The position numbers and the translations under genes are program-made. From Ideonella aquatica (GTDB lineage: Bacteria > Pseudomonadota > Gammaproteobacteria > Burkholderiales > Burkholderiaceae_C): DNA of 64,000 bases. This document shows, in pieces, positions 57,129-64,000 of the stretch. The DNA lies in assembly GCF_018069755.1 (NCBI RefSeq), contig NZ_JAGQDE010000003.1, positions 372,001-436,000 of the forward strand, in the 5' to 3' direction. The notes beneath the pieces were generated by a model, which made no database searches, was not told the DNA's origin, and was given only the letters and a program-made list of their open reading frames with translations. Positions within the stretch are counted from its first letter, which is position 1; the number at the start of each line of letters is the position of its first letter.

Positions 57129-58277
57129 TCAGGCTCTGGGTAATTCGGGGAAGACGAGGGCATTGTCGGGTTGTTTGCGATCTGACCTTGGGGGTTGCAT
57201 CATCGGGGTCGGCGGCAGCTGAAGCGCGTCCAACGGGCTGCGCGAACCCAGGCCGCCCACCTTCAGCACATGCGTGTAGATCATCGTGGTGGACACATCC
57301 GCATGGCCCAGCAACTCTTGCACCGTGCGGATGTCGGCGCCCGCCTGCAGCAGGTGCGTGGCAAAACAGTGGCGCAGCGTGTGGGGGGTGGCGGGGCGGG
57401 CGATGCCGGCGGACTGGACGGCGCGTTTGAAGGCGCGCTGGAAAGTGTCAGCGTACAGGTGATGGCGGCGCACTTCGCCGCTACGAGGATCGATCGAATG
57501 CGTGCCCTGAGGAAAGACCCAGAACCACGCCCATGTTGCGCCAGCACGAGGGTATTTTCTGGCCAGCGCATGAGGCAACTCGACGCCAGACCGTCCTTCC
57601 ATCTGATCAGCGGACCATTGCACCCTGGCATGGCCCAATTGCTCGCGCAGGTCCGTTGCCAGCGACCGGGGCAGCATGACCACCCTGTCCTTGCCGCCCT
57701 TGCCAGCCCGGACATAGATCGCCTGCTGGGCAAAGTCGACATCCTTGATCCGCAGGCCAACGCCCTCGGAGATACGCATCCCTGTCCCATACAGCAGTTT
57801 CGCCAACAGACGATAGGGGCCTTCGGGGATTCGGCGCAGCACCTCCTGCACCTCTGAGGGCGTCAGCACCACGGGCAGGCGCGGCGTGACGATCGGTCGG
57901 CCGATGTCGTCCATCCACGGCAGCTGAATGTCCAGCACTCGCGTGTACATGAACAGCAGAGCCGACAGGGCCTGCCGATGACTGGATGGCGACAACTCGC
58001 GATCGGCCGCCAGGTGCGTCAAGAATGCCTCGACCTCGGCCTTCCCCATGCCCCTCGGGTGCTGCAGGCGATGGAATCGTATGAACTGTCGGCACCAGTG
58101 CACATAGGCCGCTTCCGTCCGTCGGCTGTAGTGCATCAATCGAATGCGCTCCCGCAATTGATCGAGCAAACGATGGGATTGCAGCGGCGGCTGCGGCCCG
58201 AAGTGTGGCATGGCTGCACTTCGAGCCATGTCTGCTGGCCCGGCACCACCGTGTCGTGGTGCGGTTGTGTCGGTCAT
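57129..58277 (-). CDS. intI: Integron integrase IntI
   Basis: 382-residue tyrosine recombinase that joins attI and attC sites. Catalytic residues are complete: Arg168 (GTGMRISE), His299 and Arg302 (HTLRH), His325 (LLGHADV) and Tyr334 (TMIYTHV). The integron-specific extra segment is present at about 210-255 ([24 protein letters not shown]). The C-terminus [14 protein letters not shown] also matches IntI proteins. About 35 extra N-terminal residues precede the usual start of IntI1. The ATG follows AAGGGAGG. It points away from its cassettes, and a LexA box lies in its promoter. Confidence 0.97.
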
Positions 58278-58349
58278 GGCTTGCCTCCCTTGGCAAGGAC
58301 CGTTGAGCACCGTCACAATCAGTTGTGACTTGGCTCCGGTCTTGTCCGG

Positions 58350-58378
58350 AATTTAATACTGTATAAAAATACAGTCAA
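58350..58378 (-). promoter_or_regulatory. intI promoter
   Basis: On the minus strand TTGACT (58373-58378) and TAAATT (58350-58355) are spaced 17 bp and lie about 70 bases before the intI ATG. The LexA box covers the spacer. The boxes are read by eye. Confidence 0.5.
58359..58374. promoter_or_regulatory. LexA box
   Basis: CTGTATAAAAATACAG fits the SOS consensus CTGT-N8-ACAG exactly, with an AT-rich centre. It overlaps the intI promoter, as in other integrons whose integrase is induced by the SOS response. Confidence 0.85.
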
Positions 58379-58391
58379 CAGGAGGAAAGTC

Positions 58392-58475
58392 ATGGCCAAC
58401 AACGACGTCCCGGTCGCCCAGGTCTACCTGATAAAACGGCGCTGTTCGGAGTTCTCAGGATGTTGCGCCCTATGA
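58392..58475 (+). CDS. 27-residue leader frame before attI
   Basis: Frame beginning MANNDVPVAQVYLIKRR with a strong ribosome site (AGGAGGAAAGTC) and a stop 7 bases before the attI core. It may help translate cassettes, as ORF-11 does in class 1 integrons, or be a remnant of a gene cut by the integron. No family is recognised. Confidence 0.4.
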   Translation: MANNDVPVAQVYLIKRRCSEFSGCCAL

Positions 58476-58488
58476 CAACACGTTAGGC
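58420..58488 (+). other. attI site
   Basis: The core GTTAGGC at 58482-58488 lies between intI and the first cassette, with recombination expected after its G. The left limit is approximate; integrase-binding repeats upstream (GGATGTTGCGCCC region) resemble those of known attI sites only loosely. The paired inverse box and stem of an attC are absent. Confidence 0.75.
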
Positions 58489-58491
58489 GTC

Positions 58492-58848
58492 ATGTGCACA
58501 GTCCCTGAGGCCCTTTCCATTGGTCTCGCAATATCAGGCGTTGTCACACTGGCTCTCGCTGTCAAGCTGCAGAGTCGCTTCTTTCGCCACCTAGCCGCCC
58601 GCCACCAGAAGATCTGGGCAGCTTTCGGTAGGCGCGGCCTTTGGCGCTCGCATGAGAGCCCGGAGGCAGCCGCACAGCACTGGTATCTCATTGCAGGGGA
58701 GTACCGCTCAATCAATGACCCTGAGCTTCAACGCTCAGGTGACTGGGCGAGAAGAGTTTCCTTTTTGGCTCTAGCAATGCTGGTCATCGCCGTCGCAGCC
58801 ACTTGGCTTCCCACCTACGATTCCATCTTTGCCTGCTTTCCGCGCTAG
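58492..58848 (+). CDS. Cassette 1: small membrane protein, unknown
   Basis: 118 residues. Two membrane helices, about 7-27 and 90-108, enclose a basic/aromatic soluble loop (RFFRHLAARHQKIWAAFGRR). The ATG lies three bases after the attI core and has no ribosome site, so it may depend on readthrough from the leader frame. G+C is visibly lower than in the chromosome around it. No family is recognised. Confidence 0.8.
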   Translation: MCTVPEALSIGLAISGVVTLALAVKLQSRFFRHLAARHQKIWAAFGRRGLWRSHESPEAAAQHWYLIAGEYRSINDPELQRSGDWARRVSFLALAMLVIAVAATWLPTYDSIFACFPR

Positions 58849-58910
58849 CCTTGCATTGCAGGCCTTAAGTACAGCGCTCTCGCAACTCCTATCCCCGGCT
58901 GAAGAATGAC

Positions 58911-59036
58911 GCCTAACCCTTCGCTCAAGCGGAGCGCCAACGGCAAGCCACCTGGCCCGCGTGGCGCCTTGGTTTATCCTGCACCACGCGGGCCAGGTGT
59001 CTCGCCGTCGTCGCCCGCTTAGCTCAAACGTTAGGC
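58911..59036 (+). other. attC site of cassette 1 (126 bp)
   Basis: R'' box GCCTAAC (58911-58917) and core GTTAGGC (59030-59036) bound it. Inside, TCAAGCGGAGCG pairs with CGCTTAGCTCA, and a long palindrome (CCACCTGGCCCGCGTGG and inverse) forms the stem. This is the standard folded attC. Confidence 0.92.
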
Positions 59037-59045
59037 GTCAAAGTC

Positions 59046-59405
59046 ATGCACTACGGCATCACTCGCGAAGCCACGAACTTCACCCACGCTGGTATGAACG
59101 ACTGGCGTGTGAAGGCGATCAAAACCTTGCTCTTCTTTGTGCCACGCGCCAATCCCGACAACGAGGTCAAGTATCCCGAGGTCCGAGCCTGGGCGCTTGA
59201 ATTGTCCGATGAGGGGATTCCTCAGCGAGAGGTTGGACTGTCAGTAAGTGGAGAAGCACTCTTTCGGTCACCGAACGCTAGGAACACAGGGTTCTGGACG
59301 GACATGGCAAGCCAGAAGTTCGAGCCGGAACAGCTCGATCCGCTGAGTTCGGAAGAGTTCTCGTCGCTCTGGCAAGCCGCAGAACAACGGGAGCCTGCCC
59401 AGTGA
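59046..59405 (+). CDS. Cassette 2: soluble protein, unknown
   Basis: 119 residues, no signal or helix in the membrane. Starts MHYGITREATNFTHAGMNDW; a hydrophobic patch (TLLFFVPRAN) and an acidic C-terminus follow. The ATG lies 9 bases after the core site. Its attC is split by an IS element. No family is recognised. Confidence 0.8.
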   Translation: MHYGITREATNFTHAGMNDWRVKAIKTLLFFVPRANPDNEVKYPEVRAWALELSDEGIPQREVGLSVSGEALFRSPNARNTGFWTDMASQKFEPEQLDPLSSEEFSSLWQAAEQREPAQ

Positions 59406-59515
59406 GCAGCTCACTTCGTCGTCTTCCAGACTTGAACCGAGTTCCCACGCAGGGCGCCTCCGCGTTGACGCCTCTCAAGAAACTCCTCCCAAGTGACTGA
59501 TCTGCAATGACTTTT

Positions 59516-60940
59516 TCAGGTCGCCTGGGCCGTGGGGACGACGGACAGTCCGAGCTTGGCGGCGCGTTGGGTGATCTGGCGGATGACGCGTTCGCGGTAG
59601 CGTTCCTCGAAGTAGTCCTGGCCCTGGTCGGTGTATTCCTCGCCCTTGGTCAGCAGGGTGTAGATCAGCCGGGCGAGCTTGTGAGCGGCGGCGGTGACGG
59701 CTTTGGGCTTGTCCATGTGTGAGCACATCCTGCGGAAGTACGCGCCCAGCGCCGACTTGCTCGAGCGCAGCGCGGCGGCGGCCAGGCGCAGGGCCTGTGC
59801 AGCGCGGTTGGCACACCGCTTGGTCTTGCCGCTGAGCAGCTTGCCGCCGGTGATCTTGGTACCGGGGCACAGCCCGAGCCAGGAGGTGAAGTGCTTGACG
59901 GAGGGGAAGCGCGACATGTCCACGCCGATCTCCGAGACCACGACCAGCGCGGTGGTCACGTCGATGCCATCGATGCGCGTCAGGTCGACCCCGCACATGC
60001 GAAACAGCTGGGCCCGCAGGTCGAACTTGGGCGCATTGCGGGCGCGGCTGCGCTTCTTGCCGGGCTGAGGATCGCCCGTGTGAGCGGCCAGGACCTGCAG
60101 TTGCGCCTCGATGGCGGCGTCGCACTCGGCGAGCTGGGTGGCGTAGAAGTCGAACAGGGCCAGGGCCTGCTTCAGGGCGAACAGATGCTCGGCGCGCCAG
60201 GAGCCTTGCAGGCTCTGGGCGATCTCGTTGGTGCTGGCCTTGATGCGGGCGTCCTTGAGGGCCGCCAGCGTCAGTCCGTCGCGTTCGCCCGCGACGATGG
60301 CGCGCAGGATCTTCTGGCCGGTGGCGCCAACGATGTCGGAGATCACGTTGGCCAGTTGCAGGTTCATCTGGGTGAGCGCCTTTTGCATATGCTGCACGTG
60401 GCGCGACTGGCTGCGCAGCAGCATCTCGCGCTGGCGGGACAGGGCACGCAGCGCGCAGACCTCATCGGCCGGGCGGAAGGCCCCGCGCAGCAGGCCATAG
60501 CTCATCAGCTGCTGCAGCCACTGGCAGTCCAGCACATCGCTCTTGCGGCCCGAGACGTTCTTGACGTGCCGGGCATTGACCAGCAGCACGGTGAAGCCGC
60601 GCGCGTCGAGCAGCTCGAACAGGGGGATCCAGTACACGCCGGTGGACTCCATGGCCACGGTGTCCACGCCGCAGGCGGCCAGCCAGTCGGCCAGGCGGTG
60701 CAGATCGGCGGTGAAGCTCGCAAACTCGCGCACCGGCTCGTCATCGCGATCGGGTGGCACGGCCACATAGTGCGAGGCCGAGCCGATGTCGATGCCGGCG
60801 GCGTTGGGGTGGGTCAGGCTCAGCGCGGCGCGCGCCTTGCCAGAGCGAGGTGGTGGGGAAATTCGGTTGCGTTGAGCCAAGGCGTCCTCCATCATCCGTT
60901 GCGGAATGTGGCGCCGCATCGGGTACGTCGTCTTGCTCAC
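59516..60940 (-). CDS. IS110-family transposase, copy 1
   Basis: 474 residues. N-terminal DEDD RuvC-like domain: Asp51 (AGIDIGS), Glu98 (VAMESTGVYW), Asp135 and Asp138 (KSDVLDCQW). C-terminal Transposase_20 domain at about 300-390 (IDGIDVTTALVVVSEIG, FTSWLGLCPGTKITGGK). IS110 enzymes insert without terminal inverted repeats, guided by an element-encoded RNA. Its translation is identical to that of copy 2. About 45 residues precede the usual start of the domain. Confidence 0.95.
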   Translation of the reverse strand: MSKTTYPMRRHIPQRMMEDALAQRNRISPPPRSGKARAALSLTHPNAAGIDIGSASHYVAVPPDRDDEPVREFASFTADLHRLADWLAACGVDTVAMESTGVYWIPLFELLDARGFTVLLVNARHVKNVSGRKSDVLDCQWLQQLMSYGLLRGAFRPADEVCALRALSRQREMLLRSQSRHVQHMQKALTQMNLQLANVISDIVGATGQKILRAIVAGERDGLTLAALKDARIKASTNEIAQSLQGSWRAEHLFALKQALALFDFYATQLAECDAAIEAQLQVLAAHTGDPQPGKKRSRARNAPKFDLRAQLFRMCGVDLTRIDGIDVTTALVVVSEIGVDMSRFPSVKHFTSWLGLCPGTKITGGKLLSGKTKRCANRAAQALRLAAAALRSSKSALGAYFRRMCSHMDKPKAVTAAAHKLARLIYTLLTKGEEYTDQGQDYFEERYRERVIRQITQRAAKLGLSVVPTAQAT

Positions 60941-61150
60941 TCTCTCAAACGGGATATCGTCGGGGCAGCTGCGAACTGCCGCGCCGATTCACCAATGTCG
61001 ATGACGTCACCCAGGACCACGCTAACCCGCGGGCAGTGCGCACCATTGCCAAATCGGTCTTCCGCGGCGCCGCATTCCACCTTGCCACATCGCGCCAGCA
61101 CAGAGTTTCTTCGGGACGATTTGCGGCGGGGTCGGGCCGATTACTTCGCT
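60941..61150 (-). ncRNA. Candidate guide (bridge/seeker) RNA region of IS copy 1
   Basis: 210 bp without a gene between the transposase start and the IS end. IS110/IS1111 elements encode an RNA in their long noncoding end that pairs with target and donor DNA. Inside, GCTAACCC (61021-61028) matches the attC junction text. RNA ends are not defined. Confidence 0.35.
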
Positions 61151-61275
61151 AACCCCTCGCTCGAGCCGACCCGCTCCGGCAGGCACTGTAAGCCCGGCCT
61201 GAGCCAGTTGAACTATCGTCTCAGTCCGGGCTTACAGTGCCTGCCTACGCGGGCTGCTCAGCTCGAACGTTAGGC
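61151..61275 (+). other. attC site of cassette 2, right part
   Basis: Begins AAC, the end of an R'' box whose GCCT lies at 59470-59473 on the other side of the IS. Core GTTAGGC at 61269-61275. The stem is a perfect 20-bp inverse pair (61178-61197 and 61226-61245). Without the IS the site would be 129 bp. Confidence 0.9.
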
Positions 61276-61282
61276 AGCACGA

Positions 61283-61585
61283 ATGCCATCGTTCGTCGCG
61301 ACGGTCATCGAAACCTGGGCGCAGCTCGCTACGCCTCTTCTGGAGCGTGGATTCAAGTCGAGCACAAAGCAAAGTGCTCTTGGCAAGGCTGTCATCGAGC
61401 TGGAAGGCCCAGGTGTTGTGGCAAGCATCGAGCTCTGGGAAGATGGCCAATGCTTGGATACCACTCTTCATCGTCTCTCGGCAGATCGCGGTTCTATCTT
61501 GGCTTGCGGCTCATGCCAGTCGCACGCCGAAACGGTCACTCGACTGTCAGAGCTTCGAGCCGCGCTGCTCAACGCTACCGGATGA
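61283..61585 (+). CDS. Cassette 3: soluble protein, unknown
   Basis: 100 residues, no signal peptide. Beta-rich centre (KAVIELEGPGVVASIELWED), a Cys pair (CGSC) and a C-terminal helix. The ATG is 7 bases after the core. Domestic attC intact. No family is recognised. Confidence 0.8.
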   Translation: MPSFVATVIETWAQLATPLLERGFKSSTKQSALGKAVIELEGPGVVASIELWEDGQCLDTTLHRLSADRGSILACGSCQSHAETVTRLSELRAALLNATG

Positions 61586-61595
61586 GTACCGTGCT

Positions 61596-61721
61596 GCCTA
61601 ACCCTTCGCTGGAACCGACGCCCGCCGTCATGACACTTGGCCCGCTTCCCGGCTTAGTTCATCATCCGTCCAGCGGGCCAAGCGCCATGCCGGCGTGCGC
61701 GGCTCAGCTCGAACGTTAGGC
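61596..61721 (+). other. attC site of cassette 3 (126 bp)
   Basis: GCCTAAC at 61596-61602, GTTAGGC at 61715-61721, with CTTGGCCCGCT and its inverse AGCGGGCCAAG as stem. About six differences from the attC of cassette 4. Confidence 0.93.
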
Positions 61722-61749
61722 TTCACAACCGAACCATCGCGCAGCGGAC

Positions 61750-62049
61750 ATGTATCGGCGCATCCGTTCAACTCTAGTCGGCCTCCTACTCGGCCTTACC
61801 GCGTACGTCACCTGGCTAACGCGCGATCCGCGGCACTTCGCCAACCCTGATTCGTGGGACTTGTCAGGATTGATCCTTTGGTATCTCGCCATAGGCGCAG
61901 CCATTGGCTTTGTTGGCGGCTTGTCGTTCGTCGAGCGCTGGCTTGAAGACAAGCAAGGTGAACTCTTTGAGAACACGCTGTTGAACGCCTTGTCTGTCCT
62001 CGCACTTGTCGCAGTGATTGCGATCGCCATCTATTCCGCCCGCAGCTAA
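61750..62049 (+). CDS. Cassette 4: small membrane protein, unknown
   Basis: 99 residues with three hydrophobic segments, about 7-23, 40-58 and 78-95. Charged loops lie between (EDKQGELFEN). The ATG is 28 bases after the core site. G+C is visibly lower than the chromosome. No family is recognised. Its attC is split by IS copy 2. Confidence 0.78.
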   Translation: MYRRIRSTLVGLLLGLTAYVTWLTRDPRHFANPDSWDLSGLILWYLAIGAAIGFVGGLSFVERWLEDKQGELFENTLLNALSVLALVAVIAIAIYSARS

Positions 62050-62166
62050 CAGACCAGCCATGAGCCCAATGTTCACAACTTTCCTCCCAAGGTTCGTACT
62101 CGACTCCTCTCTGCAGTGAAGCCTCTCAAGAAACTCCTCCCAAGTGACTGATCTGCAATGACTTTT

Positions 62167-63591
62167 TCAGGTCGCCTGGGCCGTGGGGACGACGGACAGT
62201 CCGAGCTTGGCGGCGCGTTGGGTGATCTGGCGGATGACGCGTTCGCGGTAGCGTTCCTCGAAGTAGTCCTGGCCCTGGTCGGTGTATTCCTCGCCCTTGG
62301 TCAGCAGGGTGTAGATCAGCCGGGCGAGCTTGTGAGCGGCGGCGGTGACGGCTTTGGGCTTGTCCATGTGTGAGCACATCCTGCGGAAGTACGCGCCCAG
62401 CGCCGACTTGCTCGAGCGCAGCGCGGCGGCGGCCAGGCGCAGGGCCTGTGCAGCGCGGTTGGCACACCGCTTGGTCTTGCCGCTGAGCAGCTTGCCGCCG
62501 GTGATCTTGGTACCGGGGCACAGCCCGAGCCAGGAGGTGAAGTGCTTGACGGAGGGGAAGCGCGACATGTCCACGCCGATCTCCGAGACCACGACCAGCG
62601 CGGTGGTCACGTCGATGCCATCGATGCGCGTCAGGTCGACCCCGCACATGCGAAACAGCTGGGCCCGCAGGTCGAACTTGGGCGCATTGCGGGCGCGGCT
62701 GCGCTTCTTGCCGGGCTGAGGATCGCCCGTGTGAGCGGCCAGGACCTGCAGTTGCGCCTCGATGGCGGCGTCGCACTCGGCGAGCTGGGTGGCGTAGAAG
62801 TCGAACAGGGCCAGGGCCTGCTTCAGGGCGAACAGATGCTCGGCGCGCCAGGAGCCTTGCAGGCTCTGGGCGATCTCGTTGGTGCTGGCCTTGATGCGGG
62901 CGTCCTTGAGGGCCGCCAGCGTCAGTCCGTCGCGTTCGCCCGCGACGATGGCGCGCAGGATCTTCTGGCCGGTGGCGCCAACGATGTCGGAGATCACGTT
63001 GGCCAGTTGCAGGTTCATCTGGGTGAGCGCCTTTTGCATATGCTGCACGTGGCGCGACTGGCTGCGCAGCAGCATCTCGCGCTGGCGGGACAGGGCACGC
63101 AGCGCGCAGACCTCATCGGCCGGGCGGAAGGCCCCGCGCAGCAGGCCATAGCTCATCAGCTGCTGCAGCCACTGGCAGTCCAGCACATCGCTCTTGCGGC
63201 CCGAGACGTTCTTGACGTGCCGGGCATTGACCAGCAGCACGGTGAAGCCGCGCGCGTCGAGCAGCTCGAACAGGGGGATCCAGTACACGCCGGTGGACTC
63301 CATGGCCACGGTGTCCACGCCGCAGGCGGCCAGCCAGTCGGCCAGGCGGTGCAGATCGGCGGTGAAGCTCGCAAACTCGCGCACCGGCTCGTCATCGCGA
63401 TCGGGTGGCACGGCCACATAGTGCGAGGCCGAGCCGATGTCGATGCCGGCGGCGTTGGGGTGGGTCAGGCTCAGCGCGGCGCGCGCCTTGCCAGAGCGAG
63501 GTGGTGGGGAAATTCGGTTGCGTTGAGCCAAGGCGTCCTCCATCATCCGTTGCGGAATGTGGCGCCGCATCGGGTACGTCGTCTTGCTCAC
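62167..63591 (-). CDS. IS110-family transposase, copy 2
   Basis: 474 residues, identical in translation to the copy at 59516-60940, including Asp51, Glu98, Asp135 and Asp138 and the C-terminal Transposase_20 domain. No frameshift or stop, so both copies should be active. Confidence 0.95.
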   Translation of the reverse strand: MSKTTYPMRRHIPQRMMEDALAQRNRISPPPRSGKARAALSLTHPNAAGIDIGSASHYVAVPPDRDDEPVREFASFTADLHRLADWLAACGVDTVAMESTGVYWIPLFELLDARGFTVLLVNARHVKNVSGRKSDVLDCQWLQQLMSYGLLRGAFRPADEVCALRALSRQREMLLRSQSRHVQHMQKALTQMNLQLANVISDIVGATGQKILRAIVAGERDGLTLAALKDARIKASTNEIAQSLQGSWRAEHLFALKQALALFDFYATQLAECDAAIEAQLQVLAAHTGDPQPGKKRSRARNAPKFDLRAQLFRMCGVDLTRIDGIDVTTALVVVSEIGVDMSRFPSVKHFTSWLGLCPGTKITGGKLLSGKTKRCANRAAQALRLAAAALRSSKSALGAYFRRMCSHMDKPKAVTAAAHKLARLIYTLLTKGEEYTDQGQDYFEERYRERVIRQITQRAAKLGLSVVPTAQAT

Positions 63592-63801
63592 TCTCTCAAA
63601 CGGGATATCGTCGGGGCAGCTGCGAACTGCCGCGCCGATTCACCAATGTCGATGACGTCACCCAGGACCACGCTAACCCGCGGGCAGTGCGCACCATTGC
63701 CAAATCGGTCTTCCGCGGCGCCGCATTCCACCTTGCCACATCGCGCCAGCACAGAGTTTCTTCGGGACGATTTGCGGCGGGGTCGGGCCGATTACTTCGC
63801 T
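63592..63801 (-). ncRNA. Candidate guide RNA region of IS copy 2
   Basis: Same 210-bp noncoding end as in copy 1, with no gene. Called on the family's known architecture only. Confidence 0.35.
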
Positions 63802-63923
63802 AACCCCTCGCTGGAACCGACGCCCACCGTCATGCCACTTGGCCCGCTTCCCGGCTTAGGCCATCATCCGTCCAGCGGGCCAAGCGCCATGTCGGCGTGC
63901 GCGGCTCAGCTCGAACGTTAGGC
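63802..63923 (+). other. attC site of cassette 4, right part
   Basis: Begins with AAC of a split R'' box (GCCT at 62121-62124) and ends with core GTTAGGC at 63917-63923. Without the IS it would be 126 bp and about 95% identical to the attC of cassette 3. Confidence 0.9.
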
Positions 63924-63937
63924 AGCACGACAAGCCC

Positions 63938-64000
63938 ATGATCGTCATCCGCCGGATCGAACCCCAAGAGTGGTCGAAGTACCGTGAACTTCGCCTGCGC
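63938..64000 (+). CDS. Cassette 5: GNAT acetyltransferase, N-terminus only
   Basis: 21 codons before the window ends, 14 bases after the core site. The peptide IRRIEPQEWSKYRELRLR is the typical first strand and helix of GNAT acetyltransferases. Such genes are common integron cargo and can acetylate antibiotics or other amines; the substrate cannot be told from this part. Confidence 0.65.
   Translation, partial: MIVIRRIEPQEWSKYRELRLR

Follow-up and report, generated by a model that had tools for sequence, protein, structure and literature searches.

Insertion sequences of the IS110 group, such as IS621, have a recombinase with DEDD and Tnp domains and, upstream of it, a left-end region that specifies an RNA (PMC11208160, PMC11208158). 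The left target guide of that RNA matches the top strand of the left target, its left donor guide matches the right end of the element, and the core dinucleotide is CT. The long non-coding region of the group is mainly upstream and its transposases have 315–450 amino acids (aa); in the IS1111 family the region is usually downstream, the transposase has ~340 aa and subterminal repeats of 11–13 bp lie 7 and 3 bp from the ends, though a few genuine IS1111 elements carry it upstream (PMC11187229). The IS1111-attC elements (ISKpn4, ISPst6, ISPa25) insert at one end of attC and have an RNA that matches this target, with its two target matches in reversed order. ISEc21 and ISMch6, of the IS110 group, have the upstream region and have been naturally retargeted through guide changes, their target being linear, in IS3-family transposase genes (PMC11187229). 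Already published, then, are guide/target covariation, the upstream RNA found in the IS110 group and the use of RNA guides by IS1111 elements to target attC. The locus considered here is in a 64,000-nucleotide stretch of Ideonella aquatica DNA (contig NZ_JAGQDE010000003.1, positions 372,001 to 436,000; the window), where two copies of one insertion sequence split two integron attC sites at the R′′ box. Very probably this is an IS110-group element with a bridge RNA (seekRNA), encoded upstream of its transposase, that directs recombination of the circular form into R′′ boxes.

The elements, the sites that they split and two intact sites are as follows.

59474..61150, minus strand: IS110-group element, copy 1 (one CT core included)
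62125..63801, minus strand: IS110-group element, copy 2 (0 differences from copy 1)
59470..59473, plus strand: GCCT half of the split R′′ box of site 1, core CT at 59472-59473
61151..61275, plus strand: remainder of attC site 1 (AAC, stem, R′ box at 61269-61275)
62121..62124, plus strand: GCCT half of the split R′′ box of site 2, core CT at 62123-62124
63802..63923, plus strand: remainder of attC site 2 (AAC, stem, R′ box at 63917-63923)
58911..59036, plus strand: intact attC (R′′ 58911-58917, R′ 59030-59036)
61596..61721, plus strand: intact attC (R′′ 61596-61602, R′ 61715-61721)

Both copies are 1677 bp long, without a difference between them, and on the plus strand both have the junctions GC-CT-element-CT-AAC. 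The block common to them extends on the right through AACCCCTCGCT; farther out the flanks differ on both sides, and the only trace of a repeated target sequence at the junctions is the common CT. GTTAGGC boxes are at 58482, 59030, 61269, 61715 and 63917, and the uninterrupted R′′ box, GCCTAAC, is at 58911 and 61596. The left flank of copy 1, TTGACGCC, is complementary to GGCGTCAA at ~59034, the first bases of the same cassette, and that of copy 2, GTGAAGCC, to GGCTTCAC at 61719, likewise its own cassette's start. Since each left flank is complementary to the start of its own cassette, left and right flanks belong together and the split sites are attC. Tested against 200 dinucleotide shuffles, their hairpins give p = 0.005 for site 1 and 0.010 for site 2. 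The original prediction, that two elements sit at one nucleotide (GCCT/AAC) of two attC R′′ boxes in the same orientation, is borne out by the junctions and the hairpin tests, as is the claim that the two stems differ (the second split site is 93% like the neighbouring intact attC stretch at 61598-61729). Insertion at a single attC nucleotide and in a single orientation, a trait of IS1111-attC, is therefore seen here too.

The protein points elsewhere for family assignment.

59516..60940, minus strand: transposase/recombinase of copy 1 (474 aa read from GTG, start doubtful)
62167..63591, minus strand: transposase of copy 2, the same protein

It matches NF033542, 'IS110 family RNA-guided transposase', at 295 bits (cut-off 140), and both the DEDD RuvC-like domain (PF01548, 86 bits) and the Tnp domain (PF02371, 50.6 bits) are present, with DEDD residues D51, E98, D135 and D138 when numbered from the GTG. 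Stops confined to the first 19 aligned residues occur in 10 of 74 rows of relatives (8 Thr type and 2 Ser type, as defined below), so the GTG is probably not the start and Met16 or Met17, giving ~458–459 aa, is likelier. Upstream of the transposase are 208 bp of non-coding sequence to the GTG, or 253 bp to Met16, and downstream just 42 bp. No subterminal repeat of the IS1111 kind was found between the two ends, the longest repeat there being 9 bp at unequal depths of 39 and 4. The upstream position of the long non-coding region and the lack of such a repeat place the element in the IS110 group, and the earlier assignment to an IS1111 type, specifically to the IS1111-attC group, did not hold. 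Against one IS1111-like neighbour the transposase aligns at 28% over 126 aa.

The upstream region contains the predicted guides.

60928..61078, minus strand: predicted bridge RNA (seekRNA) region, copy 1, upstream of the transposase; RNA ends approximate
63579..63729, minus strand: predicted bridge RNA region, copy 2, same sequence as copy 1
61022..61028, minus strand: left target guide GGGTTAG, copy 1
63673..63679, minus strand: left target guide GGGTTAG, copy 2
60942..60949, minus strand: left donor guide TTTGAGAG, copy 1, matching the element's right end TTGAGAG

Support for these guides comes from relatives, gathered in a genome-contig scan from which the best 80 of 151 encoding stretches were kept. 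Counting the window's own genome each time, matches were present in 21 of 399 genomes of the family (E ≤ 1e-80) and, at E ≤ 1e-150, in 3 of 399 of the order and 3 of 369 of the class. Among 18 stretches of viral contigs there were 2 distant relatives, and among phages 2 records, both below 60%; the plasmid records, 243 at E ≤ 1e-60 with 3 at 60–80%, stayed outside further analysis. Thirteen loci whose left end or guide motif was off the consensus type, or whose match looked spurious, were dropped before parsing (L017, L022, L071, L089, L090, L091, L092, L094, L100, L112, L120, L122 and L123); when re-scored, L017 and L091 matched at 7 of 8 letters and L112 at 6 of 8. The 66 parsed rows reduce to 56 distinct ends and 46 guide/left-flank pairs, 39 of them with both flanks; the fold and column sets hold 49 RNAs.

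Close relatives have in common an upstream frame, TGCCCG-(8 nt)-CGTGGTC...ATTGGTGA...CCCGTTTGAGAG, whose 8 nt vary along with the bases directly left of the element, as in the guide/flank combinations CGAGTCAG with CAAGTCAG (L009), CTGATGAG with GTGATGAG (L012), TAGAATAG with TAGAATAG (L049) and TTTGTTAG with CTTGTTAG (L078). Taken together, the 46 distinct pairs agree at 213 of their 276 non-core letters, against 141.3 (standard deviation, sd, 6.3) for shuffled guides, none of 20000 shuffles being as high. With the commonest guide excluded, the remaining 27 pairs match at 123 of 162 letters against 67.4 (sd 5.6), again above every one of 20000 shuffles. Within the 8 letters, the first plays no part (7 of 46 match), the next five match in 35 to 45 of the 46, and the core AG is nearly fixed. 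A scan of RNA columns against the left flank ranks five neighbouring guide columns 1–5 in two alignments, most of whose sequences are common to both. The donor guide agrees with the right end in 40 of 43 cases, which include repeated copies of some elements, against 22.0 (sd 2.4) when shuffled (0 of 20000 as high); L008, L009 and L068 are the exceptions.

Covariation of guide with left flank and of donor guide with right end, together with the common core, is thus the computed support for a mechanism in which the non-coding sequence that precedes the transposase would yield a bridge RNA whose left target guide, 5′-GGGUUAG-3′, would pair with the R′′-box strand CTAACCC. The core dinucleotide CT, common to target and element ends (CT on the window's plus strand, AG in transposase orientation), would become the crossover and so yield the observed junctions. 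Because GG precedes GTTAG on the R′′ side (GGGTTAG) where the R′ side has AC (ACGTTAG), these two letters would select the former and thereby fix the orientation. RNA production, the circle and the covalent chemistry are taken over by analogy with IS621. The element resembles IS621 in its domains, in the position of its RNA, in what its left target and left donor guides match and in its core; it differs in its length of 458–474 aa, in having Thr for Ser241, in its attC R′′ target and in that no right target guide was detected.

This last difference heads the points that weigh against such a mechanism. Column scans for covariation with the right flank gave nothing coherent (the best, scattered, z was ~3.3), and the one GU-pair value of 4.6 came from a count of 9 where 8.1 were expected; the published scheme has two guides, and one half of it thus lacks proof in this element. 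For L111 just 1 of 6 letters agrees with its guide, and for four pairs 3 of 6; RNAalifold across the RNA set gives a weak fold (−21); Rfam has no match to such an RNA within the element. The candidate right target guide GGGTGACGTCA, partly complementary to GCGTCA, was set aside as unsupported by covariation. Also discounted were five microRNA matches of Rfam in 58300-64000, which lie on attC hairpin stems (four on the minus strand, one on the plus) with E down to 4.8e-6, all of them below gathering scores. In 48 of 49 cases (42.4 expected) the element begins with the same base that follows the guide, but as L060, L066 and L067, which are closely related, are among the departures from the common base, no handshake-like base is claimed; PMC11208158 places its handshake guides elsewhere in the RNA. 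T is the fourth base past the core in 18 of 28 distinct flanks at non-attC sites (p = 1.3e-5 against 0.25, the rows being partly dependent) and in 9 of 15 attC-like sites.

Why the R′′ box is chosen is largely answered by the guide, since GGGTTAG is seven letters of the strand opposite CTAACCC, that is, of the R′′ box and its neighbouring bases. Read in that sense, the R′ boxes of these attC sites give ACGTTAG, which the guide does not fit (the R′ side of attC is ACGTTAGGC). In the 5.17 Mb genome GGGTTAG occurs at 39 sites: 2 guides, 2 occupied flanks, 12 R′′-like sites and 23 others, where R′′-like means fitting an extended attC R′′ pattern with ≤1 mismatch, the two in the window being those inspected as attC. 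By contig, the 12 are distributed as three on C33, two on C41 and seven on C48. Two letters more, GGGTTAGGC, and 12 of 14 sites match the extended pattern. As GGGTTAG is rare, with 12 of 39 sites (and 12 of 14 for the extended form) R′′-like, the guide by itself comes close to sufficing in this host. Further R′′-like sites in this genome include C48 749-5721, C41 12980-13609 and C33 437755-438755; some being on other contigs, the pattern suggests that cassette arrays may continue beyond the window.

Relatives provide the comparison. An initial attC score had a background that was apparently contaminated by the loci's own attC, and a per-site shuffle test on 47 left flanks was used instead. Where the guide is of GGTT type, 12 of 27 left flanks pass the hairpin test at p ≤ 0.05; where it is another, 2 of 20 pass (Fisher p = 0.011), a contrast inflated by the pairing that the test requires with the last five flank letters, which favours flanks ending in GTTAG. 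Judged by eye, 10 of those 12 are attC, as is 1 of the 2 (L119); the passes not counted are L081 (an inverted repeat), L042 and L078. Missed by the test were L062, which is too short, and the half sites L010, L029, L034, L038, L040, L057 and L066, which are attC-like by eye only. Relatives with other guides are mostly at non-attC sites that resemble their own guides, and copies with the same guide also occur outside attC by eye (for instance L042, L061 and L081), so that attC is not obligatory. Of the original prediction that the attC box itself is targeted, one part stands, in that the guide spells seven of its bases; the other does not, in that same-guide relatives are also found outside attC. 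Copies lacking an R′′ box, which that prediction had held to argue against it, do exist among relatives, but there is no such intact copy in this genome.

The search for further copies that had been proposed shows both intact copies in this genome to sit in attC. The element's DNA matches this genome in 6 places, namely both copies, a fragment of the right end on C10 (88%), a remnant on C37 (83 bp), a relative also on C37 (68%) and 38 bp on C55. The right-end string AGTTTCTTGAGAGG, at ≤1 mismatch, is present in the two copies and one C37 remnant. The C10 fragment (L004, 82788-82949) stops at AGGTGTCAAC, which is like half an R′′ box, and adjoins a degraded attC-like hairpin; it is perhaps an old third insertion.

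Several individual loci deserve mention. By eye, L042 is at the start of an IS3-type orfA and L104 in a group II intron-like stretch, each with a partial guide match. The guides TACGTTAG of L080 and L087 match flanks ending in ACGTTAG, the form of an R′-like box, and are possibly set to the other attC end. In a Ser-type sister group, four of six loci (L003, L030, L118 and L015) carry guides like C.TGAGAG and lie directly at TTGAGAG, there the right end of other IS110 elements or similar sequence: L003, on C37 of the window's genome, matches its guide at 8 of 8 and stands directly against a degraded relative of the window element, at that relative's right end, the other three match at 7 of 8, and L016 and L017 have other guides. 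Guides of this kind may be directed at the termini of related elements. At L066, L057 and L010 a window-type element adjoins the apparent end of another element within attC remnants, and at L066 (36-893) the neighbour encodes an IS110-family transposase with a long, IS1111-like downstream region; two attC-seeking families may share sites.

The second feature of the element is the residue at the catalytic position. Thr364 (from the GTG) is aligned with IS621 Ser241 both by phmmer and by profile comparison, GLTPRRYE-S-G of IS621 corresponding to GLCPGTKI-T-G, so the window protein has no serine there. Sequence comparison found a single relative with a solved structure, IS621 (8wt6, E 1.5e-8); its E60, D102 and D105 are at chain positions 62, 104 and 107 by hand count, which puts S241 at chain position 243. 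The 99 distinct matched rows comprise 49 with Ser, 48 with Thr and 2 with Lys, the Lys rows looking shifted. Thr is present in 44 of 45 rows at ≥72% identity (the exception is L060) and in 4 of 54 below that. In a quick tree of 74 rows the Ser/Thr label needs 3 changes against a shuffled mean of 24; the window clade has 29 Thr rows in a 32-row node (SH-aLRT 100) which also includes 3 Ser rows, and Thr is found separately in L093/L094/L096 and in L112. DEDD is kept in nearly all rows. A nearby residue, Ser370, is shared by most proteins of both types and is a less likely substitute, as it aligns with an IS621 glycine by phmmer and with a non-catalytic serine in a gapped profile alignment. In L066, Ser is followed by Thr in the IS1111-type neighbour (NSTGGK), a caution that the catalytic column may shift between groups. 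From the alignment we infer that Thr364 would be the nucleophile; the enzyme may work like the Ser-nucleophile class and yet not be a member of it.

Difference-free copies at separate sites suggest recent movement. Those of Thr type are two of 1677 bp in the window's genome, three of 1663 bp in G049 and two of 1671 bp in G1060; a Ser-type pair of 1640 bp, L072/L073, is on plasmid pSym of Cupriavidus necator UYPR2.512. With moderate confidence, the window's clade is held to be a Thr-nucleophile lineage of bridge-RNA recombinases that has recently multiplied at guide-matched sites, its GGGTTAG guide making it an IS110-group counterpart of IS1111-attC and thus another way of reaching that box.

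Other explanations have been considered for each part of this. Mutation of D11, E60, D102, D105 or S241 abolishes IS621 recombination (PMC11208158), and since the S241 mutants are inactive an enzyme with Thr there might, short of some compensating change, have little or no activity, which again counts against the proposed chemistry. That the Thr clade is catalytically dead, or is mobilised in trans by Ser-type enzymes, is unlikely but carries some weight: this genome has a Ser-type relative on C37, itself with 2 internal stop codons, and in the tree set a stop well inside the protein occurs in 3 of 33 Thr rows (1 of 41 Ser rows). Yet the intact DEDD, the retention of Thr in nearly every close row and the difference-free Thr copies in three genomes speak for activity, and the matches in G049 (E ≤ 1e-80) and G1060 (E ≤ 1e-150), three in each, are all of Thr type, scoring having covered 4 of 7 and 4 of 8 first-look candidates. 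Were there instead a single insertion followed by cassette duplication or gene conversion, the absence of differences between the copies would be expected and both right flanks would carry AACCCCTCGCT, as they do, while the window's two intact attC sites read AACCCTTCGCT. This is very unlikely, given that flanks, stems and cassettes differ on both sides, that each left flank matches its own cassette's start and that the other two genomes hold difference-free copies at separate sites.

Recognition of the folded attC hairpin, with the guide match secondary, would account for the over-representation of attC at GGTT-type guides. It is improbable, as the hairpin test itself inflates that contrast, as other-guide relatives lie mostly at guide-like sites that are not attC and some same-guide copies lie outside attC, and as the rarity of GGGTTAG lets sequence alone nearly suffice. 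True membership of the IS1111-attC group is hardly credible. It would fit the common target box (the RNAs of that group, too, match an attC end), the few true IS1111 elements with an upstream region (PMC11187229) and the L066 relative, next to which an IS110-family transposase with a long downstream region lies at an apparent attC remnant. However, ISKpn4, ISPst6 and ISPa25 have the downstream region, the subterminal repeats, the transposase of ~340 aa and the reversed order of target matches (PMC11187229), whereas the window element has at least 208 bp upstream and 42 bp downstream, 458–474 aa and only a 9-bp repeat, at 39 and 4, in place of one of 11–13 bp at 7 and 3 bp. An IS110-group element guided by its upstream RNA remains the preferred reading, as with ISEc21 and ISMch6, from which it differs in aiming at attC.

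The surrounding integron has its integrase gene first and then cassettes on the plus strand.

57129..58316, minus strand: intI, integron integrase gene (NF011946, 508 bits, cut-off 435)

Upstream of intI, CTGTATAAAAATACAG at 58359-58374 resembles a LexA (SOS) box.

No IS110-group element aimed at attC was found in the literature on IS110/IS1111 in integrons and on bridge and seek RNAs, in the available portions of papers that include PMC12444791 and PMC11089894, with Tetu and Holmes 2008 and Post and Hall 2009 outside that coverage. Nor was an IS110-family threonine lineage reported in the literature searched, and the word threonine is absent from the IS110/IS1111 main texts searched. Judged from sequence, the Thr lineage would be the most novel part.

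The seven-letter guide explains the preference of an insertion sequence for one attC box, and suggests that attC targeting can be a guide setting in the IS110 group, beyond IS1111-attC alone. Insertion splits the attC, and the cassette is probably frozen as a result. The 46 natural guide/target pairs are ready combinations for testing bridge RNA rules, and the Thr that is kept across a copy-making clade offers a direct test case for a threonine nucleophile in such DNA recombination.

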